This document shows, one piece after another, positions 1 through 64,000 of a stretch of DNA of 64,000 nucleotides. Position numbers and translations under genes: made by a program. The stretch is taken from NCBI GenBank assembly GCA_013821455.1, contig JACDGS010000009.1:1-64000 (forward strand), given 5' to 3'. Below the pieces are notes generated by a model. The model worked only from the letters and a program-made list of their open reading frames with translations. It was not told where the DNA came from and did not search any database. Position 1 is the stretch's first letter, and each line of letters opens with the position of its first letter. This stretch comes from Chthoniobacterales bacterium (GTDB lineage: Bacteria; Verrucomicrobiota; Verrucomicrobiia; Chthoniobacterales; UBA10450).

Positions 1-1397
1 GGAAAAGTTCGCGATGGCGAGGGCGCCACCGCCGGCACGCGAGGCGCGTGCGCTCCCCGGAGGTTAGCTTGCGCGTCGCGCTGGATGGAAAGTTTCGCCC
101 GGATCGTGACCGCGAGGATTTCCGGCTTGAGCCGTGCGCCGTGGCAGACCGGGCAGGTCGCGCGATTCATGAAGGCGCGGATGCGCGTGCGGGTGAACTC
201 GCTCTCGGTCTCTTCGTACAGTCGCTGCAATTGCGGGACGAGGCCTTCGAATGGCTTCGCGGTTCTGGCAGCGCGGCCGTTACCAGTGCCGGTGTTCAAC
301 TCGATCGGCTCGTCGCCGGTGCCGAAAAGGAGCGCCTTCTTGAAATCCTCCGGCAGCTCTTCGTAGGGCATGGTCTCGGCGACTTTGAAATGCCTAACGA
401 GCGCATTCTGCAGTCCGCGGTAATAAATTTTCATCCTCTTCGTCCCGCGCCGCCAAGGGATGATCGCGCCTTCCGCGAGCGATTTGGAAACGTCGGTCAC
501 CATCAATTCGGGATCGAGCACCGGCTGCGTGCCGAGCCCGTGACAGGCCGGGCAGGCGCCGAGGTGACTGTTAAAGGAAAAATGTTTAGGCGTGAGTTGG
601 CCTAACGAAAAGTTGGTGTCAGGATTGCCGTAATCGGTCGAGTAGCGAACTTCTTGGTACCCTGGTTCGGCTCCGTCCCGGAGCGCGACCAGCCGATTGT
701 TGCCCCACTTCAGCGCGGTCTCGACCGAATCGGCCAAACGCGCGCGGATGCCTTCCCTAACGACGAGGCGATCGACCACCGCTTCGATATTGTGGCGCGC
801 GTTTTTTTTCAGCCGGATCGGTTCCGGTTGGCCGAGCTCGAAGATTTCGCCGTCCACGCGAATACGGACGAAGCCTTCGCGTTTCGTTTTCTCGATCACA
901 TCGCGGAATTCGCCGGCCTCGTTGCGCACGAGCGGCGCGAGCAAAATGATTTTCGTCTCCGGCGGGTAGAGAAGAATTTGATCGACGATCTGCTGCGCGG
1001 TCTGGCGAAAAATCGGCTGGCCCGTGACCGGATCATGCGGCTGACCGACAGCCGAAAAAAGAACGCGCAGATAATCGTAAATCTCGGTCGTGGTCGCGAT
1101 GATGGAGCGCGGATTTGTGCCCGCGCTGCGCTGCTCGATCGCGATCGCGGGCGAGAGGCCTTCGATGAAATCGACCTCTGGTTTTTCCATCTGATCGAGG
1201 AATTGCCGGGCGTAAGCGGAGAGGCTTTCGACGTAGCGGCGCTGGCCTTCGGCGTAGAGCGTGTCGAAGGCGAGCGACGATTTTCCCGAGCCGCTCAGGC
1301 CGGTGATCACGACCAGCTTTTCTCTCGGAATCTCGACGTGGAGATTCTTCAGATTATGCTGGCGTGCCCCACTGATCTTGATAGTTTTGGCAGGCAT
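1..1397 (-). CDS. uvrA: Excinuclease ABC subunit A, partial (3' end beyond window)
   Basis: UvrA is the damage-recognition ATPase of nucleotide excision repair. Translating the minus strand from ATG at 1397 gives the usual UvrA start ([18 protein letters not shown]), the Walker A motif GLSGSGKSS, the ARQFL stretch, and the zinc-module CPAC.HGLG pattern near 530-570. After the second Cys pair (CPVCHG) and KPEILAVTI, the frame stays open but stops resembling UvrA: from about 61 downward it reads through a dispersed repeat (see repeat at 5-61), and the gene leaves the window still open. Most of the protein, including the second ATPase half, is outside. The family call is secure; whether the gene is intact is not known. 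Confidence 0.93.
5..61. repeat. Partial copy of the sdh-intergenic inverted-repeat element, inside uvrA
   Basis: These 57 bases match 20958-21014 with about two or three differences, including the right-hand terminal inverted repeat (37-61 here). The left half of the element would lie before base 1. In uvrA the frame remains open across it, adding Ala/Pro/Arg-rich residues. The match ends sharply at 61. Confidence 0.8.
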
Positions 1398-1465
1398 CGG
1401 GCGGGATTTTCCGAACCTGTAAGTCAAGCACGTCCGACCGCCTTCTCCAGCGAATTTGCCTATTT

Positions 1466-1711
1466 ATGACTGAGTCCAGCCCAAGCATTCCGCAGGAAGA
1501 AGTCGCGCAATTGCAGAAGAAATTCAGCGAGGTCAAGCACTCGATAAACAACGCGCTGGCAGTGATGATGGCGCTCTCGGAAATGTCGCAGCGCCGGCCG
1601 GATTACGCGGAGAAACTGGCCAGCACCGTCCTCGCGAAAGCGCCGCAAATCGTGACGAGTTTGCAGGAGTTCACGCAGGTGCTGAACGAGAAGGCCGCGC
1701 CGAAATCGTAA
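1466..1711 (+). CDS. Small helical protein resembling a stand-alone histidine-kinase DHp segment
   Basis: This 81-residue protein has no signal peptide or membrane helix and appears almost wholly alpha-helical. Residues 25-40 read KHSINNALAVMMALSE, which resembles the H-box of phosphoacceptor (DHp) domains, where a His is followed by Asn-Asn and a hydrophobic helix. A second helix (about 52-75) could complete a two-helix hairpin. No ATPase domain follows. It starts 69 bases from the divergently oriented uvrA start, so a short shared promoter region is likely. The DHp resemblance is my inference from pattern only; a generic coiled-coil helical protein is the alternative. Confidence 0.6.
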   Translation: MTESSPSIPQEEVAQLQKKFSEVKHSINNALAVMMALSEMSQRRPDYAEKLASTVLAKAPQIVTSLQEFTQVLNEKAAPKS

Positions 1712-1725
1712 GAGCAAAACGTCCT

Positions 1726-1745: not shown

Positions 1746-1800
1746 CTCCCGTCTCCGATCACCGCAAGCCCTTATCGTGACGCTTTCAGACCTATACTCG

Positions 1801-2517
1801 TTAGGCTTTAGTCAGCGGAAGCGCTTTGGGCCAGAGGAAATAGGGGCCGAAACGAGTGCTCACCCGCATCTCGCCGCCGAGTCGCCGGCCTAGTTCGGTG
1901 ATTTGCTTGTGACCTTCGCGCACTTCGATCGCGCCCAGGCGAACGAGATGGTCGGTTAGCTCCTGCGTTTTCAAGCCAAGGCTCCGCGCCAGTTTCGAGG
2001 TGCTGAATTTGACCCCGTCTTCCGGTTCTGTTTCTTCTTCCGGTCTCGCTTTTTGTTCACTCATCGGGCGCACTTTTTCCAGGCTCATGCGCAGCTCTTC
2101 ACTGATGCGAATGAGCCGGTTGGCTTCATCGGCAAAATCCCGGTAGAGTTCGCCGTCTTCCTCGCGCGAAATGAGGATGCCTGCTTCGTTGTTATTCACC
2201 TGGCTGAAGTCGTGCAGATCCAGGCTGGTGATAATGCCGAAGTGTTCGTTCAGGTAGCAGGTCGCGTGCAGGTCTTTGCAATAGCTGGTGCGGATGAAAG
2301 AGAGCGCACTCAGCCAGTTGATTTCCCTGGGTTGAAGCTCGTTTTTTCCGTAGACCAGGCGGACGTCCAGTTTGAGCCGATTCTTATCTTCCAGCAGCTC
2401 CTTGATGCGATCGTTCAGTTTCAAGAAGGGGCTGATCAGGATAAGCCGGATGTGCGCGAGCCGGATTATCTCTTCGAGATAATAGTTAGCCGCGCTGGTG
2501 TTCAGGAACTTCGCCAT
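1801..2517 (-). CDS. Phospholipase D-like protein with C-terminal helical DNA-binding-like domain
   Basis: This is a 238-residue protein. The N-terminal two thirds follow the PLD-like fold: an early strand (IRLILISPFLKLND), then LHATCYLNE, ITSLDLHDFSQVNNNEAGI and a helix ending the domain. In active members the motif is HxK; here the Lys position is Thr (H84-A85-T86), so catalysis is doubtful. The last ~70 residues (LGLKTQELTDHLVRLGAIE, then ITELGRRLGG) resemble a KilA-C or winged-helix-type module, suggesting nucleic-acid binding. The stop codon TAA is supplied by a copy of the GCCTAACGA motif at 1798-1806. The substrate is unknown. Confidence 0.7.
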   Translation of the reverse strand: MAKFLNTSAANYYLEEIIRLAHIRLILISPFLKLNDRIKELLEDKNRLKLDVRLVYGKNELQPREINWLSALSFIRTSYCKDLHATCYLNEHFGIITSLDLHDFSQVNNNEAGILISREEDGELYRDFADEANRLIRISEELRMSLEKVRPMSEQKARPEEETEPEDGVKFSTSKLARSLGLKTQELTDHLVRLGAIEVREGHKQITELGRRLGGEMRVSTRFGPYFLWPKALPLTKA

Positions 2518-2592: not shown

Positions 2593-3528
2593 CTAGGGGG
2601 ACAGGAAATCAGAGGCGCCCAACTTCACCGCGGTAGGTTGCGGAGAGTGTTCCGGGAGCACGAAAGTCTCGCCGATTTCACGGAGAGCAATCCGCTCCGG
2701 CTCGTCAGCAAGAGCGGCGGCGAAACGCTCGATCGGTTCGCAGAATGGCTCGAAGCTCAATTTAAAGGTTTGATGATGCACGGGCATGACGAAGCGCGCG
2801 CCGGCGGCGGTGGCCATGGCAATCGCCTGCTCAGGCGTGCAGTGCGCGCGAATCCACGGTTGGTAGGCGCCGATTCCCATGATCGCGAGATCGAAAGGCC
2901 GGCCGTCGCGCAGATGCGAGAAGTCAGCGCTCATGGCGGTGTCGCCGCCGAAAATGATTCTCCGGCCCGCGCGCTCGAGGACGTAGCCATTGTAACCGCG
3001 GAAGGTGTCGTACTGTATTCTCGCGCCCCAGTGGTTCACGCGAAATTCCCTAACGAGTAAAGGACCGGCCGGCGCGTGAATTTCCGTGGTCTCGCCCCAG
3101 CGCAGCTCGGTGCTGTCGCGCAGCCGCGTTCCGCGCAGGAGATCTCGTGTGCGCGGCGCGGTCACGACCCGCGTGTGCGCGTGGAATTGCCGCAACGTCC
3201 GCCGATCGAAGTGATCGAAGTGCGCGTGGGAGAGAAGCACGAGATCAAGCGGCGGCAGCTCGCGGATGCTCAGCGCCGGTTTCGTCAGGCGTTTCGGTCC
3301 CATGGTAAAACCGGGGAAGCGCACGCCGATCCGGGGAAACAAAACCGGATCGGTCAGGATGGTGACGCCATAAAAATTCAAAAGCACGGTGGAATGACCC
3401 AGCCAGGCCGCGGTCAGGCGATCGTTAGGCCATTCGTTAGGCTGAGGGCGCGCGAAAGCGGGTCGGATCGGGCGGCGCAGCTCGAAAAGCCATTCGCGCC
3501 AAAGATGAGCGAGCCAACTGCGGGTCAT
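2593..3528 (-). CDS. MBL-fold metallo-hydrolase (NAPE-PLD/UlaG-like)
   Basis: This 311-residue protein of the metallo-beta-lactamase fold carries the zinc motif SHAHFDHFD (HxHxDH), an earlier WLGHSTVLL strand, TDPVLFPR, and later FGGDTAMS and MPVHHQTFKLSFEP, which supply the remaining metal ligands. This arrangement matches the branch that includes N-acyl-phosphatidylethanolamine phospholipase D and related bacterial hydrolases. There is no signal peptide, so it is probably cytoplasmic. It is transcribed alone; a 20-bp inverted repeat lies just upstream. The substrate cannot be read from the sequence. Confidence 0.88.
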   Translation of the reverse strand: MTRSWLAHLWREWLFELRRPIRPAFARPQPNEWPNDRLTAAWLGHSTVLLNFYGVTILTDPVLFPRIGVRFPGFTMGPKRLTKPALSIRELPPLDLVLLSHAHFDHFDRRTLRQFHAHTRVVTAPRTRDLLRGTRLRDSTELRWGETTEIHAPAGPLLVREFRVNHWGARIQYDTFRGYNGYVLERAGRRIIFGGDTAMSADFSHLRDGRPFDLAIMGIGAYQPWIRAHCTPEQAIAMATAAGARFVMPVHHQTFKLSFEPFCEPIERFAAALADEPERIALREIGETFVLPEHSPQPTAVKLGASDFLSP

Positions 3529-3774: not shown

Positions 3775-3824
3775 ACGGGAGGACTGGATCGCTACTCCAG
3801 GAGACTCGTTAGGCGACGCGGTCT

Positions 3825-4379
3825 CTATTTTATGACGCCGATCTCAGCGCGGCGATTTTTGGCCCAGGCTTCCTCGTTCGAGCTGGGGTCGGCCGGCATG
3901 TCGGCGCCAAAGCTGACGGTCTGGATGCTTTGCGCGCTCGCGCCGCTCGCGATAAGCGCTTCGCGGACGGATTCGGCGCGGCGTTCGCCGAGGCCGCGAT
4001 TGTATTCGGCGGTACCGCGCTCATCGGTGAAACCGGCGATGATGATCTGGCTGCGGCCCTGTTGCAGGAAGCTGGCGATTTGCTGGATTTTTCCGTTTTC
4101 GGACGAGCCGATGACCTGGCTGTCGAACGCGAAAGAAATGGGCTGAAACTGGTGGCGATCGACGTTGCTGCTCATGAAGGAAGTGCCGCCTTCCGGACGA
4201 TCGGACAGCGGCGTGCCGTTGACGTAATCGCCGGTGTTGCCCGCGGATTGGTCGCCTCCTTTTTTCGGCGAGCAGGCTGGGATGAGGACGAGGGCGAGCA
4301 AAACTACGAGCGGGGAAAATTGCCTAACGAGTGTAAGTGCGCAGCGAAATTTCGAATTCATAGCGGGCAGCGCGAGCAT
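3825..4379 (-). CDS. pal: Pal-like OmpA-family lipoprotein
   Basis: The N terminus is a lipoprotein signal: a basic start, a hydrophobic stretch (LVVLLALVLIPAC) and a lipobox ending in Cys. The C-terminal OmpA domain has the peptidoglycan-binding signature GFTDERGTAEYNRGLGERRA, with the conserved Asp and Arg, and the SFAFDS strand at its start. Family knowledge places such proteins in the outer membrane, bound to peptidoglycan as part of the Tol-Pal system; no tol genes are nearby. ATG at 4379 gives 184 residues; an internal ATG at 4361 would give a more typical signal peptide. Neither has a clear ribosome binding site. Confidence 0.87.
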   Translation of the reverse strand: MLALPAMNSKFRCALTLVRQFSPLVVLLALVLIPACSPKKGGDQSAGNTGDYVNGTPLSDRPEGGTSFMSSNVDRHQFQPISFAFDSQVIGSSENGKIQQIASFLQQGRSQIIIAGFTDERGTAEYNRGLGERRAESVREALIASGASAQSIQTVSFGADMPADPSSNEEAWAKNRRAEIGVIK

Positions 4380-4467
4380 AGCGGCAGCGATCTGCCATGC
4401 AAGCCGGGGGCTCGCAGCCGGGTCGTTAGGCTGCTGCGATTATAGCGGGCTAAGGCAACGCGCAATT

Positions 4468-4609
4468 TGTCATCCTGAGCCGGCGCAGCGCGGCGAAGGA
4501 CCCCGCAAGCGTTCGCGCGGCGTGTGCTGGCCTAACGACAAGCGGAAGACAATTTTCGCAAGGGAAACCGAGGGACGCTGCGGGGTCCCTCGCTCCGCTC
4601 GGGATGACA
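4468..4609. repeat. GTCATCC(T/C)GAG-type inverted-repeat element, copy 1
   Basis: The ends read TGTCATCCTGAG and, inverted, CTCGGGATGACA, with a second pair of partly complementary blocks (GGACCCCGCAAGCG and GCTGCGGGGTCC) inside. A GCCTAACGA copy sits in the middle. The same ends recur at 30061-30175, and half copies lie at 7144-7195 and 35829-35862. There is no coding capacity, so it behaves like a small non-autonomous palindromic element between the Pal-like gene and the universal stress protein gene. Confidence 0.8.
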
Positions 4610-4644
4610 AGCCAAAGCGAGGGCGCGCTGCGGAGAACGGCTCG

Positions 4645-5541
4645 TTAGGCAGATTTCGCGCCGAAGCCGTGGAGGAGCCGATGGAAAAATCCGCCTTCCG
4701 CGTCGTCGTCATCGACGATCTTCCCGGCGCGCGCGACGAGCACCGGACATTCAGCGCGGTTCAAAATCCCGCGCGTCAGATCGCCCATGATGTAATGGCG
4801 GAATGTCCCGCCCGCCTGCGAGGTGCCGGTGACGATGAGGTCGTGCTCGCCTTCGCGCACTTCCATGAAAATCTGGTCGAGCGCGAGCCCATGACGAATG
4901 CGCACTTCGACTTCGAGTCCCATTTTTTCCAGGCTCTCTTTTTGCCCAAGCAAGCCGAGGCCCAGCTCGGAATCGGAGGCGAGCAAACGATCGACGTCTT
5001 CTTCCAGCCTAACGAGATCGGCATAAATCGCGGGCGGCTCCGCCATGACGTGCAGGAGCGTGAGCGACGCACCGACACACGTGGCGATCTCGCCCGCGAG
5101 CTGCACCGCATCGTCGATGTAACGTTTCCCGCCCGTGCAAACGAGAATGCGCTTGATGCGACCGCACGCACCGATCGCCACCAGCACCGGCGGCGGCACG
5201 GCCTTGATCACTTCGTAGGTTTTTTCCGGACGCCAATACAAACCACCGGTCCCTTTGCGTCGCGCACCGATGATCGCGAGATCGTATTCGTTCGCCGCCG
5301 TCTCGGCGAGGATCTGGCGGATCGGCTCGCCGGAGCGGATCACGATCGTGGGCGTGACGCCCTGCTCCTGGAGCATGGCGGCTTCGCCATCCAAGGCAGC
5401 GCGCAAGGCCTGTTCGTCTTCGTCCTTCTCCGCGATGCCCAGAAGAGTGGTTGGCGACTGGCAAGGCGCGCCAATGATGCCGCCGATCCGCGTCGGGTTA
5501 TCGGCCGGGTCGGTGCCATCGCTGCAAATGAGGAGACGCAT
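4645..5541 (-). CDS. Tandem universal stress protein (two UspA domains)
   Basis: This is a 298-residue protein. The first UspA-like half (about 1-125) has a DLAIIGARRKGT segment but is less canonical. The second half (about 128-280) has the ATP-binding signature GTSQAGG followed by GDLTRGILNRAECPVLV, i.e. the G-2X-G-9X-G(S/T) pattern, so it probably binds ATP. It lies 3 bases from the TauE permease gene upstream on the same strand, so the two plus the small membrane protein before them form an operon. The physiological trigger is not visible. Confidence 0.9.
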   Translation of the reverse strand: MRLLICSDGTDPADNPTRIGGIIGAPCQSPTTLLGIAEKDEDEQALRAALDGEAAMLQEQGVTPTIVIRSGEPIRQILAETAANEYDLAIIGARRKGTGGLYWRPEKTYEVIKAVPPPVLVAIGACGRIKRILVCTGGKRYIDDAVQLAGEIATCVGASLTLLHVMAEPPAIYADLVRLEEDVDRLLASDSELGLGLLGQKESLEKMGLEVEVRIRHGLALDQIFMEVREGEHDLIVTGTSQAGGTFRHYIMGDLTRGILNRAECPVLVARAGKIVDDDDAEGGFFHRLLHGFGAKSA

Positions 5542-7249: not shown

Positions 7250-8122
7250 ATGATCCCCGTCGCCCTAACGATCGCGGGCTCCGATTGCAGCGCGGGCGCA
7301 GGTCTGCAAGCCGACCTGAAAACGTTCAGCGCACTCGGCGTGTACTGCCTAACGGCGGTGACCTGCGTGGTCGCGGAAGTGCCGGGAAAAGTCTCGCGCA
7401 TCCAGGCCGTTGCGGCGGAAAATGTCCGCACGCAGATCGAACTCCTGCTCGCAAGCTTCCCGGTAGCGGCGGTGAAAACCGGGCTGCTGTATTCGCCCGA
7501 AGTGGTGGAAATCGTCGCGGATATTTTCGAGAAAAGCGCGCTGCGAAATATTCCATTGATCATTGATCCGGTGATGATCGCGACCAGTGGAGATGTATTG
7601 CTCCAGTCGGCGGCGGTGGAGATTTATCGTTCGCGGCTTTTTCGGTTGGCCACGCTCGTCACGCCAAACATGGCCGAAGCGGCGGCGCTGACTGGTCGGC
7701 CGGTGCGCGATATCGACGAAATGCGCACGGCGGGCGAGCAGCTTCAGGCCGAGTTCGGTGCGCGTTTTCTAGTTAAAGGCGGGCACTTGTCCGGTGACCG
7801 CGCGATCGATCTGTTGTTCGACGGCTCGCGGATCGAGGAATTTTCCGCGCCTTTTCACGAAGGCATTTCGACCCATGGGACGGGTTGCACTTACTCCGCA
7901 GCGATCGCGGCCGGGCTCGCGCAGGGACATGTGCTCGAGACCGCAATCGCGCGCGCGAAGGAGTTCGTTAGTCGCGCAATTGGCGAGCACTTTTCCTGGA
8001 CGAATTCGTTAGGCAAGATCGACGCGCTGAATCACGTAATACAGGCTTCCAGCCTGTCAGGTCGCCCGGGCTTCCAGCCCGGAGCGTCACCCTCCGGCGG
8101 GCAGGATGCCCGCTCGACCTAA
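7250..8122 (+). CDS. thiD: Hydroxymethylpyrimidine/phosphomethylpyrimidine kinase
   Basis: ThiD phosphorylates HMP and HMP-P in thiamine synthesis. The start is ATG 7250 (MIPVALTIAGSDCSAGAG); the frame is open upstream, but family alignment begins here. AGSDCSAGAGLQAD is the substrate-binding segment, DPVMIATSG the central motif, and THGTGCTYSAAIAAGLA the anion-hole and catalytic-Asp region, with TGC where many members have TGT or SGC. The last ~24 residues (from about 8050) are translated from a palindromic repeat and are foreign to the family. No TPP riboswitch is seen upstream, and no other thi gene is near. Confidence 0.92.
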   Translation: MIPVALTIAGSDCSAGAGLQADLKTFSALGVYCLTAVTCVVAEVPGKVSRIQAVAAENVRTQIELLLASFPVAAVKTGLLYSPEVVEIVADIFEKSALRNIPLIIDPVMIATSGDVLLQSAAVEIYRSRLFRLATLVTPNMAEAAALTGRPVRDIDEMRTAGEQLQAEFGARFLVKGGHLSGDRAIDLLFDGSRIEEFSAPFHEGISTHGTGCTYSAAIAAGLAQGHVLETAIARAKEFVSRAIGEHFSWTNSLGKIDALNHVIQASSLSGRPGFQPGASPSGGQDARST

Positions 8123-8140: not shown

Positions 8141-8871
8141 TACGCATCGCTCTGCTTCCACCTTTCTTCCTTCAAAGCCACAAGCGCAGCCGCGCTTTCC
8201 GCGTGTTTTTTGCTGCGTCCGGTTCCTTCTCCCAGCACCTTCCTCTCCCAGATTACCCGCACCGCAAAGGTCTTCTCGTGTTCCCGCCCCTCCTGCGAGA
8301 TCAGTTCGTAAACCGGGCTGCGCGGCGAGATCGCCTGCAGCAATTCCTGCAGCTGGCCCTTGGGATTTATCTCCAGCGACTCATCCTCGAGCCGCCCCAA
8401 TTCCTCCTCCATTTCCGCCAGGATAAAACGGCGCGCCGTCGCCAGATCGCCATCGAGAAAAATCGCGCCTAACAATGCCTCAAACGCGTCCGCCAAAGTG
8501 GAAGCGCGCATGCGTCCGCCACTCGCTTCCTCGCCCCGGCCTAACAATAAGTGACGGCCCAGTTCGAGCTTGAGCGCATGCTCCTTGAGCGATTCGCGCG
8601 AGACCAGGCGCGCGCGCCGCGTCGTTAGGCGACCTTCCCCCGCGTCGCCGAAAAGATGGAAGAGATGCTCCGTGATGACGAGCTGGAGGACGGCGTCGCC
8701 GAGAAATTCGAGCCGCTGATTATCGAAATGGCCGCGTTGCTTTTCGTGGCGCACGCTCGGGTGTGTCAGCGCCTCGGTGAGCAACTGCGGATTGCGAAAC
8801 TCGTGCGCGATGCGCTCTTCGAGAGGATGCACGACGCGGCACTCGTTAGGGCGCGCGACCGCCGCGCGCAT
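8140..8871 (-). CDS. rnc: Ribonuclease III
   Basis: RNase III cleaves double-stranded RNA in rRNA and mRNA processing. The 243-residue protein has the catalytic signature NQRLEFLGDAVL with the metal-binding Glu and Asp, the later DAFEALLGAIFLD with the second acidic pair, and a C-terminal double-stranded RNA-binding domain (GQLQELLQ, then GEGTGRSKKHAESAAA). The start at 8871 overlaps the end of the upstream S41-like gene (8846), so the two are probably co-transcribed with purD. An in-frame start inside the leader is possible but less supported. Confidence 0.95.
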   Translation of the reverse strand: MRAAVARPNECRVVHPLEERIAHEFRNPQLLTEALTHPSVRHEKQRGHFDNQRLEFLGDAVLQLVITEHLFHLFGDAGEGRLTTRRARLVSRESLKEHALKLELGRHLLLGRGEEASGGRMRASTLADAFEALLGAIFLDGDLATARRFILAEMEEELGRLEDESLEINPKGQLQELLQAISPRSPVYELISQEGREHEKTFAVRVIWERKVLGEGTGRSKKHAESAAALVALKEERWKQSDA

Positions 8872-20878: not shown

Positions 20879-21020
20879 GCATATTCCGGGGAGCGCACGC
20901 GCCTCGCGTGCTGTTTTCGGCGCCCCGCCGAAAACCCGGCGGACGTTGCCTAACGAGAAGTTCGCGATGGCGAGGGCGCCATCGCCGGGACGCGAGGCGC
21001 GTGCGCTCCCCGGAATATGC
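20879..21020. mobile_element. MITE-like element with 31-bp perfect terminal inverted repeats
   Basis: Arms 20879-20909 and 20990-21020 are exact inverted copies. Inside are a second inverted pair (GTTTTCGGCG and CGCCGAAAAC) and a GCCTAACGA copy at 20948-20956. It fills the space between sdhA and sdhB with no coding capacity. A partial copy is at 5-61 in uvrA. It is short, symmetric and present more than once, which fits a non-autonomous mobile or REP-type element; no transposase is in view. Confidence 0.85.
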
Positions 21021-27754: not shown

Positions 27755-27764
27755 CCTATACTCG

Positions 27765-35714: not shown

Positions 35715-35828
35715 AGCGCAGCGCGCCACGCTAAAGGCCGTTCACGCGGAGTTCCCGGAAAGACGGCGAGGAGCCTGCCAAGGTTGCTCGGTTGTCGATT
35801 TGCCTAACGAAATCGTGTGACACATGCG

Positions 35829-35862
35829 AGGTCCCTCCCCGCTTCGCCGGCTCGGGATGACA
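35829..35862. repeat. Right half of the GTCATCC(T/C)GAG element
   Basis: The right-end sequence, ending in CTCGGGATGACA, is present without its left partner, between sucA and the hydrolase gene. Confidence 0.6.
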
Positions 35863-35879
35863 ACTCGCGCGAAGCGATT

Positions 35880-37846: not shown

Positions 37847-37861
37847 GCGAAGCTGCCTCGT

Positions 37862-38421: not shown

Positions 38422-38498
38422 TCGCTTCACCCACGGACCAGCCGTTCCCCGGGACGATTGCCCACGGCACTTTCCCTGCTTAATCTGAGCGCTCCAAA

Positions 38499-52715: not shown

Positions 52716-52909
52716 CCTACGCTAACCCCTTAAACGCTCCGGCCTCTGCGCTTAGGCCCCGCAAAACGACGAACTCGCCTAACGAGACTAAGTCTTCGCG
52801 CCGCCAGCTTGCCTAACGAGGCTAATCCTTTGTTGAGATTCAACACTGATCTTAAGATCCCAATCGAAACCACTCGCTCGTAAACGTTAAGGGAGAGGCG
52901 TGGAATTTA
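52716..52909. other. Short intergenic region with two GCCTAACGA copies
   Basis: Nothing codes here. Two same-orientation copies (52777-52785 and 52811-52819) lie 34 bases apart, and AGACTAAGTCTT forms a small palindrome between them. It lies between the dockerin gene and the DUF3303 gene, both of which end toward it. Confidence 0.6.
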
Positions 52910-55404: not shown

Positions 55405-56189
55405 GCATCTGCAGCGGCCTTGACCCGATTCCAGATCGCATCCATCGCGGTGAGATCGGCGTCGCCAAGCTTCTGGCCGTCGGCTTTCATCGCCTTTTCC
55501 ATTAGATGGAAACGGCGGATGAATTTCTCCGTGGCCGAGGCCAGGAGGGTCTCCGCTTCGAGCTGATTTTTCCGCGCGAGATTCACCGTCGCGAAAAGCA
55601 GGTCGCCGATTTCATCCGCGATCGCGTCCGCTTCGCCCGCGGCGAGGGCTGCTTTCACTTCCGCCAGTTCTTCCTCGACCTTGGCCACGACCGCGGAAAT
55701 TTCGCTCCAATCGAAACCGACGCGCGTCGCCTTCGTTTGCGTTTTCTGCGCGAGGAGGAGCGCCGGGAGCGCTCTCGTTAGGCCGCTAAAATAAGGCGCG
55801 TCCTTATCCGCGCTTTTTTCCGCGCGCTTGATCGCGTCCCATTGTTTAAGGACGGCACCCGTGTTGCGCGCTTCGCTCTCCCCAAAAACATGAGGATGCC
55901 GCCGAACGAGTTTGTCGCCAATCTCGCGGGCGACGTCGTCGATGGAAAAACGTCCGGTTTCGCTCGCGATTTGCGCATGCATCACGGCCTGCAGGAGCAG
56001 ATCGCCCAACTCTTCGCGGAGATTAGCATCGTCCTTGGCGCGGATCGCCGCCGCTACTTCGTAGGTCTCCTCGAGCAACTCCGGGACTAACGACTCATGG
56101 GTTTGCTCGCGATCCCAAGGGCAGCCATCCGGCGCACGGAGTTGCCTAACGATGTCGCAAAGCCGCGCGAAAGACTCCACCGCTTTCAA
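55401..56189 (-). CDS. mazG: Nucleoside triphosphate pyrophosphohydrolase MazG
   Basis: The 262-residue protein has two MazG domains. Domain 1 has APDGCPWDREQTHESLVPEL, LLEETYEVAAAI and LREELGDLLLQAVMHA (EExxE and ExxD metal sites). Domain 2 has VEEELAEVKAAL and IADEIGDLLFATVNLAR. It hydrolyses (d)NTPs to monophosphates and may also lower ppGpp. It overlaps the DUF2270 gene upstream by 4 bases. Confidence 0.94.
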   Translation of the reverse strand: MKAVESFARLCDIVRQLRAPDGCPWDREQTHESLVPELLEETYEVAAAIRAKDDANLREELGDLLLQAVMHAQIASETGRFSIDDVAREIGDKLVRRHPHVFGESEARNTGAVLKQWDAIKRAEKSADKDAPYFSGLTRALPALLLAQKTQTKATRVGFDWSEISAVVAKVEEELAEVKAALAAGEADAIADEIGDLLFATVNLARKNQLEAETLLASATEKFIRRFHLMEKAMKADGQKLGDADLTAMDAIWNRVKAAADA

Positions 56190-56965: not shown

Positions 56966-57433
56966 ATGATCTCAATTCCGCTCGCCGATTTTTTCTCGGA
57001 AAAACATCTCGCGCTGGATCTGCGCAGCACGACGGCCGGCGAAGCGGTCTGGGAAATCGTCGAGCGCCTGCGCGAAAGCGGCGACCTGAACGAGGCGGAG
57101 AAATTCTACGATCTGGTGATGGAGCGCGAGCAGAAAAGCTCGACGGTGGCGAATGGCGGCGTCGCATTTCCGCACGCGCGCACGAACCTGGTCGACCGGA
57201 TTTTGCTCGGGATCGGGCGAAGCAAAGCGGGAGTGACGTTCTCCGATAGCGCGGAACCGGTGCACCTGCTTTTCGTCATCGCCGTGCCGCAGCAGATGGT
57301 GAACGACTACCTCATCTGTGTGGGCGCGCTGGCGCGTTTGCTGAAGAATGAGGACCGGCGCAAAGCTTTGCTGGAAGCGACGACTGCCGCGGAGTTCTTC
57401 GAAGAGCTGCAGCGCGATCGTGAGGCGGCCTAA
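56966..57433 (+). CDS. PTS IIA domain protein (PtsN/fructose type)
   Basis: The 155-residue protein has the IIA fold, with H70 in NGGVAFPHARTN as the phosphorylation site, and LLFVIAVPQQMVNDYL and LARLLKNEDRRKALLEA after it. Single IIA proteins of this type are usually regulatory rather than sugar-specific. No EI, HPr or IIBC gene is in view. Its stop TAA is part of a GCCTAACGA copy (57428-57436) and overlaps the convergent GT2 gene. Confidence 0.9.
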   Translation: MISIPLADFFSEKHLALDLRSTTAGEAVWEIVERLRESGDLNEAEKFYDLVMEREQKSSTVANGGVAFPHARTNLVDRILLGIGRSKAGVTFSDSAEPVHLLFVIAVPQQMVNDYLICVGALARLLKNEDRRKALLEATTAAEFFEELQRDREAA

Positions 57434-58206
57434 CGACGGCTTAATTCTTTCGCCGGGGGTGCGGCGCGCGCGGCTTCCGCGCATTCGTTAGGCATGGACC
57501 GACCCTGGGTATAATACCAGCGATGTAGTCGATGCGGCGAGCAACCGCACCAATAAAGCAAAATGAAAAGACCGTTCTGAATCGAGGTGCGCCAGGCGCC
57601 TCGATCCAGGTGGCGGCGGCTCGATGACTCGATCGGCGGATCAAGAACCGCGATGCGGCCGGCCCGGCGAAGGCGGCGGGAGAACTCGATGTCTTCCATG
57701 AGCGGGACCGGAGCAAAACCGCCTAACGAATTAAAGATTTCTCGCCTAACGAAAATCGATTGATCGCCGAAGAGCGTGCCGCCGCGCCGCGTAAAAAAAC
57801 GGGCGACTTTTTCCAGTCCGTGAAGATGTGGATGCCGACGGTCGAACTTTCGATAAAAAGCCCCGCCGATCACCGCCGGATCGCGCAGGGCGCGCGCGAT
57901 GGCGGTGAGATGTTCCGCGCGCAGAATCGCGTCGGCGTGCTGAAAAACCATTACGTCTCCCGAGGCCCGGGAAGCGCCCAGATTCATCTGCGCGCCGCGG
58001 TTTGGCTCCGGCGCACCCAGGTAAATCCCGCCCGCGCCGCGCACGAGATCTTCGATCGCCGGGTCGGCCGACGCATCGACCACAATCACTTCGTGCAATT
58101 CCTTCAGCCTAACGAGTGCAGGAACCAGCTCCTGCAAATGCGCGCGGTCGTTCCAACTGGGGACGACCACGCTGATTCGCACCGGCGCCGCCGGGCTTTC
58201 GCTCAC
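57430..58206 (-). CDS. GT2 glycosyltransferase (TIGR04283-like)
   Basis: The 258-residue protein has SVVVPSWNDRAHLQELVPAL, VIVVDASAD, EPNRGAQMNLGA, MVFQHADAIL and the later GDQSIFVRREIFNSLGGF and PLMEDIEFSRRLRRAG. This is the compact GT2 branch known for association with radical-SAM or selenium-related proteins, though none lies nearby. It overlaps the rhomboid-like gene start by 4 bases, hinting at an operon. Confidence 0.88.
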   Translation of the reverse strand: MSESPAAPVRISVVVPSWNDRAHLQELVPALVRLKELHEVIVVDASADPAIEDLVRGAGGIYLGAPEPNRGAQMNLGASRASGDVMVFQHADAILRAEHLTAIARALRDPAVIGGAFYRKFDRRHPHLHGLEKVARFFTRRGGTLFGDQSIFVRREIFNSLGGFAPVPLMEDIEFSRRLRRAGRIAVLDPPIESSSRRHLDRGAWRTSIQNGLFILLYWCGCSPHRLHRWYYTQGRSMPNECAEAARAAPPAKELSRR

Positions 58207-59045
58207 GAGGATTTATTGAGCAGGCGATTGCGCGCGCGATCGAGCGCGCGGCGCTCGCTCGCAGTCAGGCTGCCGATGCCGGACTTGGAAATCTTATCAA
58301 GCACGGGATCGATCGAATCGTAAATGTCTTCGCCCTCCGCCGTGCGTGGCGCACTCTCGCGCGGGACAACTTGGAATTTTGGCTTGCGGCGGAAAAGTCC
58401 GGTGACCGCCGCGGGCAACTCAAAGGGCACCTGTTTCCCAATCAATCTGAGGTAAATAAAACTCGTTAGGCACATTCCCCAGAGGACGGAGAGATTGCCC
58501 CACTCATGGTTAGGCAAGGTCTGCATCGAAGCCAGGACGAGGCCGGCAAAGGCGAGCCATTTCAGCGTGACCCAGCCGAAAAGCTCAACGTTAGGATAGA
58601 GGGTGGCGAAGGCGATAAACATGCCCACCGAGATTTCGTACGAGCCGTAGTAGGTCCAGTGCACGCCCCCCGCGCTCCAGCAGGTGAGAAAAACCGGAGG
58701 CACGAGCAGCAGTAGCGCGAGGAGGGTGAGATAACGCTGGCGGCCTAGATATTTTTCTACTTCAACGCCCGACCAGTAGAGGAAGAAAATGTTGAAGAGG
58801 AAAAAGAATGAGGCGCCCTGGATGAGCACGCAGGTGATGGGTTGCCAGACCGATCCATGCCAGAACGACCACGTCGTAAAAGCGAACGGCGTCACCACGT
58901 CCCAATGCGCAGAAAGCGCGATGACGGTGGCGAACATTCCGATGACGAACGCCGCGACCACGATGGTGGTGATGCGAATCGGGTAGCGTCCCATCCAACC
59001 AACCGGCTGGTAGTCATCGGAGGTAACCACGCCAAACATCACCAC
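58203..59045 (-). CDS. Rhomboid-like membrane protein, catalytic residues not evident
   Basis: The 280-residue protein has six helices in the rhomboid order, the first near residues 27-47, with FWHGSVWQPITCVLIQ and FFFLFNIFFLYWSGVEVEKYLG. In the region where active proteases have GxSGxxxG it reads YGSYEISVGMFIAFATLYP, and the expected His in the sixth helix is not seen (GNLSVLWGMC). It is probably an inactive rhomboid relative. The last 60 residues are soluble and charged. Confidence 0.72.
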   Translation of the reverse strand: MVMFGVVTSDDYQPVGWMGRYPIRITTIVVAAFVIGMFATVIALSAHWDVVTPFAFTTWSFWHGSVWQPITCVLIQGASFFFLFNIFFLYWSGVEVEKYLGRQRYLTLLALLLLVPPVFLTCWSAGGVHWTYYGSYEISVGMFIAFATLYPNVELFGWVTLKWLAFAGLVLASMQTLPNHEWGNLSVLWGMCLTSFIYLRLIGKQVPFELPAAVTGLFRRKPKFQVVPRESAPRTAEGEDIYDSIDPVLDKISKSGIGSLTASERRALDRARNRLLNKSS

Positions 59046-59184: not shown

Positions 59185-60996
59185 ATGGAAAATATCGCCC
59201 CTGCCATCTCGCTGCCCGCTGGCTTGGGCGAAAACAAAACGCGCAATCAAGCGGTGCTCGCTTGGGTGGCAGAGATCGAGTCGTTAACCGAGCCGGAAAA
59301 CATTTTCTGGTGCGACGGCTCGCAAGCGGAGAATGATTTTCTCCTCAGCGAAGCCTGCCGCCTGGGCGTGCTCATAAAGCTCAACCAGGAGAAAGCGCCG
59401 GGCTGTTATCTGCATCGGTCGAGCCCTAACGACGTCGCGCGGGTGGAGCAGTTCACACTCATCTGCACGCCGACGAAAGCGGAAGCCGGTCCGACAAATA
59501 ATTGGGCTGAGCCCGGCGAAACCTACCGAAAAATTAACGGCTACCTCAAAGGCGCGATGCGCGGGCGCACCATGTATGTCATTCCCTACATCATGGGGCC
59601 GGCGGAATCGCCCCTCGCTAAAATCGGCTACGAAATCACGGACTCGATTTACGTCGTTCTGAGCATGCGGATCATGACGCGGATGGGTGCGAAAGCGTCC
59701 GAGAAGCTCGGCGAAAAAGCCGACGCGGAATTCAATCGCGGCGTGCACTCGCTCTTGGATATCAACCCGGAGCGCCGTTGGATTTGTCACTTCCCGCAGG
59801 ACAACACCATTCTCTCAGTCGGCTCCGGTTACGGCGGCAATGTTCTCTTGAGCAAGAAATGTCTCGCGCTCCGCATCGCTTCCTACCTCGCGAAAAAACA
59901 AGGCTGGCTCGCGGAGCACATGCTCATCCTCGGCGTCGAATCGCCGGAGGGAAAAAAGCACTACGTCGCGGCGGCGTTCCCGAGCGCTTGCGGCAAGACG
60001 AATTTCGCCATGCTCATTCCGCCGAAACATTTTGCCGGCTGGAAAATCACCACCATCGGCGACGACATCGCGTGGATGCAGATCGGTGACGACGGCCGGC
60101 TCTACGCGGTCAATCCGGAGAACGGTTATTTCGGGGTCGTGCCGGGCACGAGTTACAAATCGAATCCGAACGCGATGAAGTCGATTGAGCACGACACGCT
60201 CTTCACCAACGTCGCCCTAACGAGTGAAGGAGAGGCCTGGTGGGAAGGAAAAGACGGTCCTGTGCCTGACGAGGCGACCGATTGGAGAGGCAACCCCTGG
60301 ACACCGGCCGCGAAAGAAAAAGCGGCGCATCCGAACAGCCGTTTCGCCGTGCCCATGCAAAACAATCCAGTGCTCGACGCAGAGGTGGAAAATCCGGCCG
60401 GCGTCCCGATCAGCGCGATCATTTTTGGCGGACGGCGGAGCGACACGATGCCGTTGGTTTTTCGCGCCTTCGATTGGGAGCACGGCGTTTACGTCGGCGC
60501 GACCATGGCTTCCGAGACGACGGCGGCCGCCACTGGCGCGGTCGGCCAGGTGCGGCGCGATCCGATGGCGATGCTGCCGTTCTGCGGCTACAACATCGGC
60601 GATTACTTCCGGCACTGGCTCGAGACGGGACCGCGCCTAACGAACCCGCCGTTGATCTTTCACGTTAACTGGTTCCGCAAAGACGCGACGGGAAAATACC
60701 TCTGGCCTGGTTTCGGCGACAACATGCGGGTGCTGAAATGGATGATCGATCGCTGCGAAGATAAAAGCGGCGCGCAAAGAACGGCGATCGGCTGCATCCC
60801 GCGCGCGGAAGATCTCGATCTCGAAGGATTGGAAGGGGTCTCAGCGGAGCAGTTGAAAACTTTGCTTTGGGTTGAGCCTAACGAATGGATGAAAGAGCTC
60901 GCGGGGCAGAAGGAGTTCTTCGACTCGCTTGCGCCAAACGTTCCGAAGGAGTTGCTCGCGCAGGGCGAGAAACTCGCGGAGCGGCTGGATCGTTAG
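59185..60996 (+). CDS. pckG: Phosphoenolpyruvate carboxykinase (GTP)
   Basis: The 603-residue protein has the GTP-type family length and motifs: FPSACGKTNFAML (P-loop), GDDIAWMQ (second metal site), NPENGYFGVVPGT, FGGRRSDTMPLV and NWFRKDATGKYLWPGFGDNMR. It converts oxaloacetate to PEP in gluconeogenesis. ATG 59185 fits the family start. The stop TAG lies in a TCGTTAGGC copy (60990-60998). Confidence 0.96.
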   Translation: MENIAPAISLPAGLGENKTRNQAVLAWVAEIESLTEPENIFWCDGSQAENDFLLSEACRLGVLIKLNQEKAPGCYLHRSSPNDVARVEQFTLICTPTKAEAGPTNNWAEPGETYRKINGYLKGAMRGRTMYVIPYIMGPAESPLAKIGYEITDSIYVVLSMRIMTRMGAKASEKLGEKADAEFNRGVHSLLDINPERRWICHFPQDNTILSVGSGYGGNVLLSKKCLALRIASYLAKKQGWLAEHMLILGVESPEGKKHYVAAAFPSACGKTNFAMLIPPKHFAGWKITTIGDDIAWMQIGDDGRLYAVNPENGYFGVVPGTSYKSNPNAMKSIEHDTLFTNVALTSEGEAWWEGKDGPVPDEATDWRGNPWTPAAKEKAAHPNSRFAVPMQNNPVLDAEVENPAGVPISAIIFGGRRSDTMPLVFRAFDWEHGVYVGATMASETTAAATGAVGQVRRDPMAMLPFCGYNIGDYFRHWLETGPRLTNPPLIFHVNWFRKDATGKYLWPGFGDNMRVLKWMIDRCEDKSGAQRTAIGCIPRAEDLDLEGLEGVSAEQLKTLLWVEPNEWMKELAGQKEFFDSLAPNVPKELLAQGEKLAERLDR

Positions 60997-61015
60997 GCGA
61001 GGCCTATAGGACCTA

Positions 61016-62419
61016 TCAATAAGCCGACGCCGGGGGCACCACCAACTGCACACAGGTCCGCGCGATGATGCCGCACTCCAGCATCAGGTTCCAATTTTCC
61101 AAATACTCCAGATCGCAGGCCACCCGGTTTTCGATGTCCTGGTTCGTCTGCGCTTCGCCGCGGAAGCCGCGCACCTGCGCGAGGCCGGTGATGCCCGGCT
61201 TCACGAACGCGCGCACGTGGTAGCTCGACATCAACTGCGCAAACTGCGCGTTGTGCTCAATCAAATGCGGGCGCGGGCCGACCGTGCTCATCTCGCCGCG
61301 GAGCACGTTCCAGAACTGCGGAATCTCGTCGAGGCTGAGTTTGCGAAACCATTTGCCTAACGAATAAATGCGCTCGTCTTCCGTCGTCGCCTGGCGCGTG
61401 ATGTCGTGATTAGCGGAATGCATGGTGCGGAATTTCAGAATCTCAAAATGCTTATTCTGGATGCCGGCGCGGATCTGCCGATGGAAGAGCGGGCCGGGCG
61501 ATTGCAGGCGCTGCGCCAACCAAACGATGAGCGCGAGCGGCGGGAAGACGAACAACATGATCGGCACGGTGAGCACGACATCGAGTCCGCGTTTGAAGGC
61601 GCGATTAAGCGGATTCTCCAGCGGCTCCTCGCGCAGGCCGATGAAGCGAAAACCGTCATCCTCGAAATGGACGACGGGGTGGCGCAGTTTTTCCTCAAGA
61701 TCGCTCACGATCAAAAGCCGCACCCCGAGCTGATCGCACGCCGCGATGACGCCGCGATTCAGTTCATCGAGCTGCGGAAACTCGAGCATGATGACCTGCG
61801 TCACCCCCTCTCTCTCGATGATGGAACGCAATTTTCCGGTGCCGCCGAGCACGGGGATTTTATCGTCGGTGCAATCGAGCGGTTCTTCGCAAATAATTCC
61901 AACCGTGCGCAAGCCGACATCGGCTTTGCGGCGGAGCCAGCCGCGCAGTTGTTTCGCTTTTGCGGTCGAGCCGACGAGGAGCGTTTTCTCATCGCGCAAT
62001 CCGAAAATTCCGCGCGCCAAAAATTGCGGCAGAAAATGATGCGAGAAGAGGAGCGCGATGTAGAGCCACGGCACGAAATTGAAGAAGAAAATTCGCGAGA
62101 TGAAGGCGTCCTTGGCCGCGATCAGATAAAGGACGAGCGCGCCGACGCTGGCGATCGTTTGTCGCAGCGCGAGCCGATGTTGCCGGAGCAATTCTGCCTG
62201 GAGAAAATAATTTTTCGAACCTTCGCGACTGAGGGATTCGGCCAGAATCCCCACGAAAAGCATCATGCAGTAGGTGGTGTAACTGCCGCGGGTGAGCTTC
62301 CCGCTCGGCGAATAAAAGGTCACCATCACCCAGACGCCAAACCAGAAGAGCGCGGCCACGAGCACGAGCTGGCAAAGCAGAAAAACCCGGTACAAACCTT
62401 GCGTGCGCTGGGTGAGCAT
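61016..62419 (-). CDS. Polyprenyl-phosphate sugar-1-phosphate transferase (exopolysaccharide initiation)
   Basis: The 467-residue protein has four N-terminal helices, a CoA-binding-like middle region (LVGSTAKAKQLRGWLRRKAD, VIMLEFPQLDEL), a fifth helix, and a C-terminal bacterial sugar transferase domain: RGLDVVLTVPIMLFVFPPL, HFEILKFRTMHS, LDEIPQFWNVLRGEMSTVGP and GLAQVRGFRGEAQ. Such enzymes start exopolysaccharide or O-antigen units on undecaprenyl phosphate. The divergent gene after it encodes an O-antigen-ligase-like protein, so this is the edge of a polysaccharide cluster. Confidence 0.92.
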   Translation of the reverse strand: MLTQRTQGLYRVFLLCQLVLVAALFWFGVWVMVTFYSPSGKLTRGSYTTYCMMLFVGILAESLSREGSKNYFLQAELLRQHRLALRQTIASVGALVLYLIAAKDAFISRIFFFNFVPWLYIALLFSHHFLPQFLARGIFGLRDEKTLLVGSTAKAKQLRGWLRRKADVGLRTVGIICEEPLDCTDDKIPVLGGTGKLRSIIEREGVTQVIMLEFPQLDELNRGVIAACDQLGVRLLIVSDLEEKLRHPVVHFEDDGFRFIGLREEPLENPLNRAFKRGLDVVLTVPIMLFVFPPLALIVWLAQRLQSPGPLFHRQIRAGIQNKHFEILKFRTMHSANHDITRQATTEDERIYSLGKWFRKLSLDEIPQFWNVLRGEMSTVGPRPHLIEHNAQFAQLMSSYHVRAFVKPGITGLAQVRGFRGEAQTNQDIENRVACDLEYLENWNLMLECGIIARTCVQLVVPPASAY

Positions 62420-62560
62420 GGTTATCGATCGGAACGGAAGGCCAACTCTGACGCGGAATCGCAGCCGGAGCGCGCGTCGTCAGTCGAGAGTTTCATCAGT
62501 GGCCTTCGCCGAGGATTAAAATCATAAAGCTACTCCCATACCATCGCGAATCTCCGAGCC

Positions 62561-64000
62561 ATGCAAACTGAGCGCGCCCAGCACGACGACCGATCACGCC
62601 CGGCCAGCGGGGCCGCAGCGGGTTGGACGGGAGTCACCCTGGCGTTATTCGTCGTCCTCGGGTCGTTTCTCGGCGGAACAACGACGCGCTGGAGCGAGGG
62701 CATCGTCATGGCGGGCTTCGGCCTTTTGCTGCTGGCGCGGCCGCCGCGCTTTTCTCTCGGGCCGACGCTGAATTTATTAGCGCTTCTTTTTTTGGCGCTC
62801 GCCGCCGTCGCGTTTTTGCCCGCGGCTTGGTTTCACGTTCCCGCGTGGCGCGTTGCCCTAACGAATGACTTCGGGCTCGCGCTGCCCCCTACGCTCAGCG
62901 TGCAGCCATGGTTGACGCTCGAGAGCTGCGTCACGCTTCTCGCGGGCCTGACGTGGATTTATTACGTCGCCACCTTTGCGGCTGACCTCCGCGACATCCG
63001 GCTTGCGGCGCGCGTTTTTGCGGGCGGCATGATTGCTCTCGCCGCGCTCTGCATCGTGCTCCATCTGCGGCAAACCGCGCTGCCTTTTTGGCACAACGTG
63101 CGCAACTTCGGCCCCTACCCGAATCGCAATCAAACCGGCGATCTCTTCGGCATTTCGACACTGATCGTTCTGGCCTGTATGCGGGAAGATTTTCGGCGCG
63201 GAAATCTGCGCTGGATCGTCTGGGCCGGCGGTGTCGGCGTCTTGGTCGCTGCGCTCGTGCTCGATTTTTCGCGCGCCGGGATTCTGCTTCTCGTTCTCGG
63301 CGTCGCCGCCTGGCTCGTTAGGCTGGCCTTCCGCAAATGGAGCGGCGCCGGCGTCGCTGTGGGCGTTTCAGTGCTGCTTGTTCTCTTCGCTGCGCTGCTC
63401 CTTTTCGGCGGCGAAACGATCGCTCGTTTTCACCTGCGGCTCGACAGCGACGAGTCGATGACCTCCGATTTTCGCTGGCTCATTTTTCACGACGCCTGGA
63501 CGATGATCAAAGCTTCGCCCTGGTGCGGAGTTGGACTGGGAAATTTCGAAAGCGTCTTCGCCCTCTTCCGCAACGCTTCGCAAAGTGCGAATCGCGCCCT
63601 TCATCCCGAGAGCGATTGGCTTTGGCTTTGGAGCGAGATGGGCTGGCCTGCCCTTCTTCTCTTGGGCGCTGCGGCGCTGCTTTTCGTTAGGCGCGCACTT
63701 CCCTTGCAGGAAGGGACGAATCAGCGGCTTCGTTACGCGGCGTTGCTTGGCGCGTTGCTCTTTGCGCTGCACGGTTTCGTCGATGTCTCGGCGCATCGCT
63801 TTGGCACTTTTCTCGCCGGGACTTTTCTCCTCGGACTCGCGCAGCGCCGGCCAATTGCGACCGCGCCTTCTCGCTGGTTGCCGCTGGTCTTTCGCCTAAC
63901 GGGTCTTGTTCTCCTCGCGCTCGGGACGACTTGGTTTTTTGCCTGGCGCAATCACGCGCTTCTTCCCGGTGACCTCGGCGTGGAGGAGGCGAAGGCCGCC
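62561..64000 (+). CDS. O-antigen ligase/polymerase-like membrane protein, partial (runs off window)
   Basis: From ATG 62561 the frame is open to the end of the window (480 codons so far). About 11 hydrophobic helices are seen, with the Wzy_C-type signature FGPYPNRNQTGDLFGIS, VLDFSRAGILLLVLGVAAW, and FHDAWTMIKASPWCGVGLGN, HPESDWLWLWSEMGWPALLL in the large loop. Members ligate or polymerise surface polysaccharides. The gene overlaps no other; the sugar transferase is divergent, 140 bases away. The C terminus, and any TPR domain, lie beyond 64000. Confidence 0.88.
   Translation, partial: MQTERAQHDDRSRPASGAAAGWTGVTLALFVVLGSFLGGTTTRWSEGIVMAGFGLLLLARPPRFSLGPTLNLLALLFLALAAVAFLPAAWFHVPAWRVALTNDFGLALPPTLSVQPWLTLESCVTLLAGLTWIYYVATFAADLRDIRLAARVFAGGMIALAALCIVLHLRQTALPFWHNVRNFGPYPNRNQTGDLFGISTLIVLACMREDFRRGNLRWIVWAGGVGVLVAALVLDFSRAGILLLVLGVAAWLVRLAFRKWSGAGVAVGVSVLLVLFAALLLFGGETIARFHLRLDSDESMTSDFRWLIFHDAWTMIKASPWCGVGLGNFESVFALFRNASQSANRALHPESDWLWLWSEMGWPALLLLGAAALLFVRRALPLQEGTNQRLRYAALLGALLFALHGFVDVSAHRFGTFLAGTFLLGLAQRRPIATAPSRWLPLVFRLTGLVLLALGTTWFFAWRNHALLPGDLGVEEAKAA

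Follow-up and report, generated by a model that had tools for sequence, protein, structure and literature searches.

The closest described counterparts of the element reported here are the DNA uptake sequence (DUS) of Neisseriaceae, whose receptor is ComP, and the uptake signal sequence (USS) of Pasteurellaceae. DUS are more conserved than the genome as a whole, whereas their flanks diverge slightly more than average (Treangen et al. 2008, PMC2397512), and DUS dialects follow phylogeny (PMC3630211). USS, for which ComN/PpdA is the predicted receptor (PMC12616744), evolve through point mutation (PMC7811141) and are biased toward gene termini (PMC2346458). A third iterated word, the palindromic HIP1 (GCGATCGC) of cyanobacteria, has been linked to orphan methyltransferases (PMC4390886). 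The element in question is the 9-base word GCCTAACGA, which recurs throughout a 64-kb stretch of DNA from a Chthoniobacterales bacterium (hereafter the window: positions 1 to 64,000 of contig JACDGS010000009.1, which lies in genome G000). A sequence-only reading of the window had put the word forward as a candidate DNA uptake sequence, and our analysis of the genome and its relatives suggests that this is probably its function.

In length, in a density of about one copy per kb, and in its presence on both strands, GCCTAACGA is the same as DUS, and it likewise combines above-average conservation with slightly more divergent flanks. The clade-wise variation of DUS dialects has a parallel in GCCTAACGA and a second word, AAGATCGACA, and the type IV pilus, ComEC, and DprA genes of G000 add to the likeness. 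With USS, GCCTAACGA shares the 9-base word, the spacing near 1 kb, and evolution by point mutation; USS also have a one-sided extension, as GCCTAACGA does. The sequence-only reading had noted that the word itself differs from those of Neisseria and Pasteurellaceae, and indeed it matches no known DUS or USS. In 759 kb of G000, the DUS 10-mer has 1 copy against 2.7 expected (0.4 of expectation), and the GCGG-core words Hin-USS and Apl-USS have 3 copies each against 5.2 expected (0.6 of expectation). DUS dialects have CTG in common, whereas GCCTAACGA lacks CTG and shows on inspection no obvious common core with AAGATCGACA. Unlike USS, GCCTAACGA is spread evenly along genes. Its genome-wide iteration recalls HIP1, but HIP1 is a palindrome, whereas GCCTAACGA is asymmetric and its extension lies on the 3' side.

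Abundance, placement, and shape of the word

The assembly of G000 (4,302,014 bp in 117 contigs; 97.5 per cent complete, 3.1 per cent contamination) contains 4605 copies of GCCTAACGA, 2306 forward and 2299 reverse. This is 159-fold over the dinucleotide expectation (29 for both strands) and far from a count near expectation; the same letters read backwards, which served as a control, occur 33 and 29 times. In the window, GCCTAACGA is the top-ranked 9-mer when both strands are pooled, with 68 exact copies (33 forward and 35 reverse), whereas 100 dinucleotide-preserving shuffles of the window averaged 0.33 copies and reached at most 3. All 68 coordinates that had been read by eye are exact copies, and a search of the full window added none; the strand balance noted in the sequence-only reading holds for the genome as well. 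That reading had also listed variants beginning with C or A, and these are real: the 8-mer CCTAACGA occurs 86 times in the window, 18 times with another first letter (12 C, 5 A, and 1 T).

Over 18 pieces, strand use does not vary significantly (chi-square 24.1, p = 0.15); taken singly, three of the pieces are lopsided (10:1, 10:3, and 12:3). A replication-skewed signal, such as FtsK orienting polar sequences (KOPS) or Chi, is therefore unsupported.

Placement was scored with gene calls from our own simple caller (84 per cent coding). Over the 759 kb, the four stop-free coding frames hold 160, 185, 157, and 120 copies, 163 copies are intergenic, and 69 straddle a gene end; copies on the gene strand are in modest excess (345 versus 277, p = 0.007). 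In a smaller set of 417 copies, 290 lie wholly within genes, 87 are intergenic, and 40 cross a gene end, and the 290 are divided among the stop-free frames as 78, 73, 78, and 61. The reading frames are mixed, as the sequence-only reading had noted for the window. In three of the four frames, GCCTAACGA forces a rare codon (CTA, TTA, or AGG, at 4.3, 5.4, and 3.7 per 1000, respectively). Because all stop-free frames are in use, three of them at the cost of a rare codon, we reject a codon or protein explanation. Density is 1.05 per kb within genes and 1.46 outside, and copies are uniform over gene deciles (31, 29, 33, 29, 26, 28, 23, 32, 31, and 28). The word supplies the stop codon of 39 of the 323 scored genes (23 TAA and 16 TAG). 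Its spacing is near-Poisson (398 gaps; mean 811, standard deviation 863). The signal acts at the level of DNA.

Tolerance to change was measured in 374 kb of G000 (the window and 20 contig pieces). Single-base variants of the TAAC core (letters 4–7 of GCCTAACGA) occur at 0 to 2.3 times expectation, whereas the edges are tolerant: C or A at position 1, A at 2, A at 8, and G or T at 9 are enriched 11- to 30-fold. A weak preference for T is found two bases upstream, and a weaker 3' extension has the consensus GTA.A.GAC in 76 intergenic copies, so that the full signal spans about 18 bases; exact continuation as GTAAAGGA is found in 15 copies. Beyond about -3 to +17, the flanks carry no signal above our thresholds, and we therefore reject a repeat family or mobile element as the source of the copies.

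Conservation and distribution among relatives

Relatives were searched with two stretches, 13.8 and 17.3 kb long (31 kb of the window together), and 19–24 kb could be aligned for each of G042, G040, G043, and G037. These genomes are 76–80 per cent identical to G000 (20–24 per cent divergence), and G037 belongs to another genus. At sites aligned without gaps, GCCTAACGA is retained exactly in 26 of 35 cases in G042 (0.150 for other 9-mers), 11 of 30 in G040 (0.132), 12 of 25 in G043 (0.127), and 13 of 23 in G037 (0.107), which is 3 to 5 times the retention of other 9-mers. In G041, aligned over the first stretch only, the figure is 6 of 15, against a background of 0.122. Viewed from the relatives, their words in aligned columns are also present in G000 at 26 of 35 (G042), 11 of 14 (G040), 12 of 14 (G043), and 13 of 18 sites (G037).

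The conservation is confined to the word. In the same four relatives, third codon positions are identical at 0.91, 0.80, 0.74, and 0.76 inside the word and at 0.58, 0.57, 0.56, and 0.54 outside it, and the 30-base flanks are slightly below average identity (0.76 versus 0.799, 0.73 versus 0.776, 0.77 versus 0.785, and 0.72 versus 0.765). Among 51 non-exact alleles, 29 are within one or two substitutions of GCCTAACGA, and 32 differ at the fifth base. Sites of GCCTAACGA change by point substitution and not by insertion, among sites aligned without gaps; because this set excludes sites at which the relative has a gap, insertions would be undercounted.

In the family of G000 (83 genomes), GCCTAACGA is strong in genera g1 (all five genomes, 1410–4605 copies), g10 (one of one, 2147), and g11 (one of one, 1802). 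Dinucleotide expectations, computed for 14 genomes of the family from genera other than g2, g3, g4, and g13, give 20- to 42-fold enrichment in five genomes of g6–g9 and 5-, 7-, and 4-fold in one genome each of g5, g14, and g12. No other dominant word was recognized in samples of 19–135 kb from g5–g9, among which those of g8 (36 kb) and g9 (19 kb) are small; in the g8 sample, GCCTAACGA ranks first among 9-mers. In 135 kb of g6 (L030–L032 and L050–L053), GGATCGTACA with its overlapping k-mers occurs 17 times against 0.13 expected and may be a local repeat.

Beyond the family, the highest count in 384 of 387 genomes is 133 (G270). Judged by eye, the word is mildly raised and clearly above the backward control in G267, G270, and G279 (genus g51) and in G458 (g71), which belong to the same class but to other families. 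When named genomes were scanned for the 17-mer GCCTAACGAGTAAAGGA, a scan that may omit the source genome and those near it, nine stretches were returned, each of them selected for at least one copy of the 9-mer. Five, within three genomes labelled Chthoniobacterales (L043–L046 and L049), are 2.1 to 8.0 kb long and contain 2 to 8 copies. The remaining four, from genomes named Lachnospiraceae, Olsenella, Nitrososphaerales archaeon, and Opitutaceae, are 1.2 to 8.0 kb long and contain 1 or 2 copies. We regard G000 as related to the Chthoniobacterales set (Verrucomicrobiota, Spartobacteria).

A second word, AAGATCGACA, is found in G038 (noted at loci L027–L029, L144, L154, L156, and L157) in 2314 forward and 2339 reverse copies (1.6 per kb, 482-fold). 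In 107 kb of that genome (182 copies), A or T directly follows AAGATCGACA in 97 per cent of copies, and eleven pairs on the same strand have a spacing of 15 or 16 bp, ten of them of exactly 15 bp. Elsewhere in the order AAGATCGACA is rare, with at most 46 copies among 85 genomes outside the family. In a midpoint-rooted tree of one gene, ComEC, from 51 of the 83 family genomes, the sampled AAGATCGACA-rich genera (g2, g3, g4, g11, g12, g13, and g14) form one clade (support 100/99), and g1 and g10 form another (100/100). Word choice thus tracks the ComEC tree by clade, and the preference of the sister clade appears to have changed to the unrelated word AAGATCGACA. Within this tree, G040 (g1) pairs with G037 (g10) with support of 100/99, and therefore the ComEC gene departs from the genus labels.

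Candidate function and alternatives

Genes expected of a competent cell are present in G000: pilin-type N-termini and ComEC, both of which the sequence-only reading had proposed to look for, along with type IV pilus genes and DprA. ComEC (Pfam PF03772) is found in 76 of the 83 family genomes, and its match in G000 (C40:3105-3920, a predicted protein of 757 residues) is above the Pfam cut-off; DprA is found in all 12 genomes queried. A scan of ten G000 proteins identified a pilus secretin of the Amuc_1098 family (905 bits, cut-off 750), a PilM-like protein of the Amuc_1101 family (660, cut-off 650), four proteins above the PilT/PilU cut-off, DprA, and a single-strand binding protein, as well as PilB/GspE-like and PilC/GspF-like proteins that are below the equivalog cut-offs. 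Fifteen pilin-type N-termini reach an E-value of 0.01 or better. We placed a pilin-rich locus, L143 (G000:C109), and its counterparts L144–L152 in ten genomes and compared the gene lists of nine (all but G039). By gene order we take it to be a Gsp-type secretion locus, and we dropped it as a source of the receptor.

The density of GCCTAACGA rises with GC content. Among 597 genes of at least 300 bp, it is 0.30 per kb (39-fold) in the lowest GC fifth and 1.66 per kb (327-fold) in the highest, and in 5-kb tiles the Spearman correlation of GCCTAACGA with GC is 0.62. GC is only a proxy for recent acquisition, and GC-biased recombination could be another cause of the trend. In the 759 kb (854 copies; some gaps end at the ends of pieces), word-free gaps longer than 6 kb number 9 against 1.0 expected, whereas those longer than 3 kb are near expectation (32 versus 29). 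Together with the GC gradient, the excess of very long gaps may point to a word that is rare in recently acquired DNA. Of ten genes hand-picked from three gaps longer than 6 kb, six have a Pfam match (HicA, HicB-like, addiction-module component, ResIII/helicase, DUF5131/GP88, and DUF2283) and four have none. Two word-free segments, L015:3929-17372 (13 kb) and C40 136–152 kb (16 kb), contain toxin-antitoxin-type genes and are possible islands.

We propose that a surface-exposed component of the type IV pilus apparatus would bind GCCTAACGA on free DNA, that the pilus would draw word-bearing DNA inward, that ComEC would pass one strand inward, and that DprA and RecA would recombine this strand into the chromosome. 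Because word-bearing fragments would be taken up more often, recombination would keep restoring and spreading the word, a molecular drive limited by harm to genes. The uptake interpretation gains support from conserved words in less-conserved flanks, from change by substitution, from sparsity at low GC, and from the pilus, ComEC, and DprA genes. It is also favored because the genome-wide counts are 159-fold over expectation, the flanks are unrelated, the frames are mixed, and strand skew is not strong. As a set, these features resemble those of published uptake sequences, and no alternative appears to cover all of them as well. The system is best read as having arisen independently of those of Neisseria and Haemophilus. 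We give even chances to the fuller scenario of a third independent origin in a different phylum, with the word replaced between sister clades of one family and with G038, which carries both words, perhaps reading the two.

Several observations weigh against uptake as the function. Neighboring copies of GCCTAACGA occur in all four orientations (109, 104, 99, and 86 pairs) with no excess of close inverted pairs, whereas in Neisseria such pairs of the uptake word serve as terminators. The ComEC of G000 is below the cut-off of NCBIfam ComEC_Rec2 (168.5 versus 190.05). Genus g5 is strong in neither word, yet most of its genomes have ComEC, and therefore the machinery is not sufficient; taken alone, it does not predict the word. 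The comparison of nine gene lists from the pilin-rich locus yielded no receptor candidate. Across the codon-typicality score, GCCTAACGA density is nearly flat (0.89, 1.05, 0.99, 1.00, and 0.90 per kb), which speaks against foreign DNA as a simple explanation of the GC trend. G038 is dense for both words, having 1802 copies of GCCTAACGA besides AAGATCGACA, yet shares none of nine aligned GCCTAACGA sites with G000 over the first stretch, although no more than about 0.6 would be expected by chance (background 0.064). In the sampled 107 kb of G038, AAGATCGACA, unlike GCCTAACGA, has almost no single-base variants (0–7 each); it is also frame-biased (42 and 54 copies in two frames, 1 to 26 in the other four), and its neighbors favor the same strand (107 versus 68). 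Finally, our literature search found no uptake or transformation experiment in these organisms, and among the matches listed, mostly open-access and without bioRxiv, none described an uptake sequence from Verrucomicrobia.

An alternative that we consider unlikely is that GCCTAACGA is a HIP1-like iterated motif, maintained not by uptake but by a cytoplasmic protein that binds or modifies DNA, such as a methyltransferase or a mismatch or repair factor. Such a protein would account for a word spread genome-wide, in and between genes, as the tie of cyanobacterial HIP1 to orphan methyltransferases illustrates (PMC4390886), and two such proteins would easily explain two words in one genome. But GCCTAACGA is non-palindromic with a graded 3' extension, and HIP1 itself is only 1.7-fold enriched in the 759 kb. 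The GC gradient and the long gaps are expected from uptake, yet they are compatible with this alternative as well.

It is very unlikely that GCCTAACGA is a recombination hotspot like Chi, recognized by an enzyme of the RecBCD/AddAB type. A short, non-palindromic recombination word would likewise be conserved and possibly rarer in foreign DNA, but against this reading stand the 9-base length with a 3' extension, the lack of significant strand skew, and the unrelated word in the sister clade. In addition, GCCTAACGA is enriched 167-fold in the 759 kb, compared to 3.4-fold for the Escherichia coli Chi word.

We regard it as highly improbable that the word serves to bind nucleoid, segregation, or transcription-termination proteins. 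In favor of this, the word is dense and genome-wide, somewhat denser outside genes than inside, and 39 of the 323 scored genes stop within it; however, it has no significant strand skew, is uniform along genes, and lacks dyads, and its steep GC gradient is unlike that of an architectural site. An origin from integron attC sites, or from a mobile repeat of another kind, has a negligible probability and the attC reading is rejected: the heptamer GTTAGGC resembles the attC core consensus, but convergent pairs (GCCTAAC..GTTAGGC) at 40–150 bp number 13, fewer than the 24 divergent ones, the flanks have no common sequence beyond the short extension, and substitutions distinguish the words in aligned orthologous DNA.

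If GCCTAACGA is indeed an uptake sequence, it would be the first outside two unrelated bacterial families and the third case overall, and uptake bias would be something that arises repeatedly. Frequent gene exchange would be implied in these soil bacteria, which are known mostly from assembled genomes; to our knowledge, gene exchange in this group has not been studied so far. The receptor might be sought among those pilin-type proteins in which the clades of the two words differ, and GCCTAACGA might also be useful for recognizing foreign DNA in such genomes.

Copies in the window and neighboring features

Table 1. Coordinates of GCCTAACGA copies in the window, with their state in relatives G042, G040, G043, and G037 where the two window stretches are aligned; "exact match" refers to the copy in the window itself
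Position	Strand	State
392..400	+	exact match
600..608	+	exact match
1798..1806	-	exact match
3422..3430	-	exact match
3434..3442	-	exact match
3806..3814	-	exact match
4322..4330	+	exact match
4423..4431	-	exact match
4530..4538	+	exact match
4642..4650	-	exact match
5007..5015	+	exact match
8006..8014	-	exact match
8622..8630	-	exact match
9070..9078	-	exact match
9898..9906	-	exact match
10041..10049	+	exact match
12415..12423	-	exact match
15456..15464	+	exact match
18502..18510	-	exact match
20377..20385	-	exact match
20519..20527	-	exact match
20948..20956	+	exact match
21802..21810	+	exact match
22510..22518	-	exact match
23976..23984	-	exact match
25890..25898	+	exact match
26340..26348	-	exact in G040; other letters in G042, G043, G037
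26791..26799	+	exact in G042, G037
27199..27207	-	exact in G042
27762..27770	-	exact in 4/4 relatives
28925..28933	-	exact in G042; 2 or 3 substitutions in G040, G043, G037
30374..30382	-	exact in G042, G040
31596..31604	+	exact in G042, G040, G037
32190..32198	+	exact in G042, G043, G037
32363..32371	+	exact in 2/2 relatives aligned there
32450..32458	-	exact in 2/2 relatives aligned there
34481..34489	+	exact in 2/2 relatives aligned there
34597..34605	+	exact in G037
35446..35454	-	exact in G042, G043, G037
35802..35810	+	1 substitution in G042
36034..36042	-	exact in G042
36195..36203	+	exact in G042
36530..36538	+	exact match
37840..37848	-	1 substitution in G042
38042..38050	-	exact in 2/2 relatives aligned there
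38591..38599	+	exact in G042
39225..39233	-	exact in G042
45287..45295	-	exact match
47044..47052	+	exact in 4/4 relatives
47394..47402	+	exact in G042, G043, G037
49340..49348	+	exact match
49784..49792	-	exact match
52777..52785	+	exact match
52811..52819	+	exact match
55775..55783	-	exact in 4/4 relatives
56144..56152	+	exact in G043
57428..57436	+	exact in 0/2 relatives aligned there
57485..57493	-	exact in 2/2 relatives aligned there
57721..57729	+	exact in 0/3 relatives aligned there
57744..57752	+	exact in G042, G037
58107..58115	+	exact in 3/3 relatives aligned there
58463..58471	-	exact in 0/2 relatives aligned there
60635..60643	+	exact in G042
60876..60884	+	exact in 0/4 relatives
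60990..60998	-	exact in 4/4 relatives
61355..61363	+	exact in G043
63315..63323	-	exact in G042
63684..63692	-	exact in G042, G043, G037

The longest word-free stretch of the window is 6.06 kb (39.2–45.3 kb). Two similar, neighboring tetratricopeptide (TPR) repeat genes are located at 41386–43488 and 43670–45736, one inside this gap and the other mostly so. The window also contains dispersed short repeats, at about 30060–30176, 38342–38429, and 35825–35863, which recur as numerous partial copies in G042 and less often in the remaining relatives. G000 is enriched in k-mers such as GTCATCCCGA, which may belong to these repeats.

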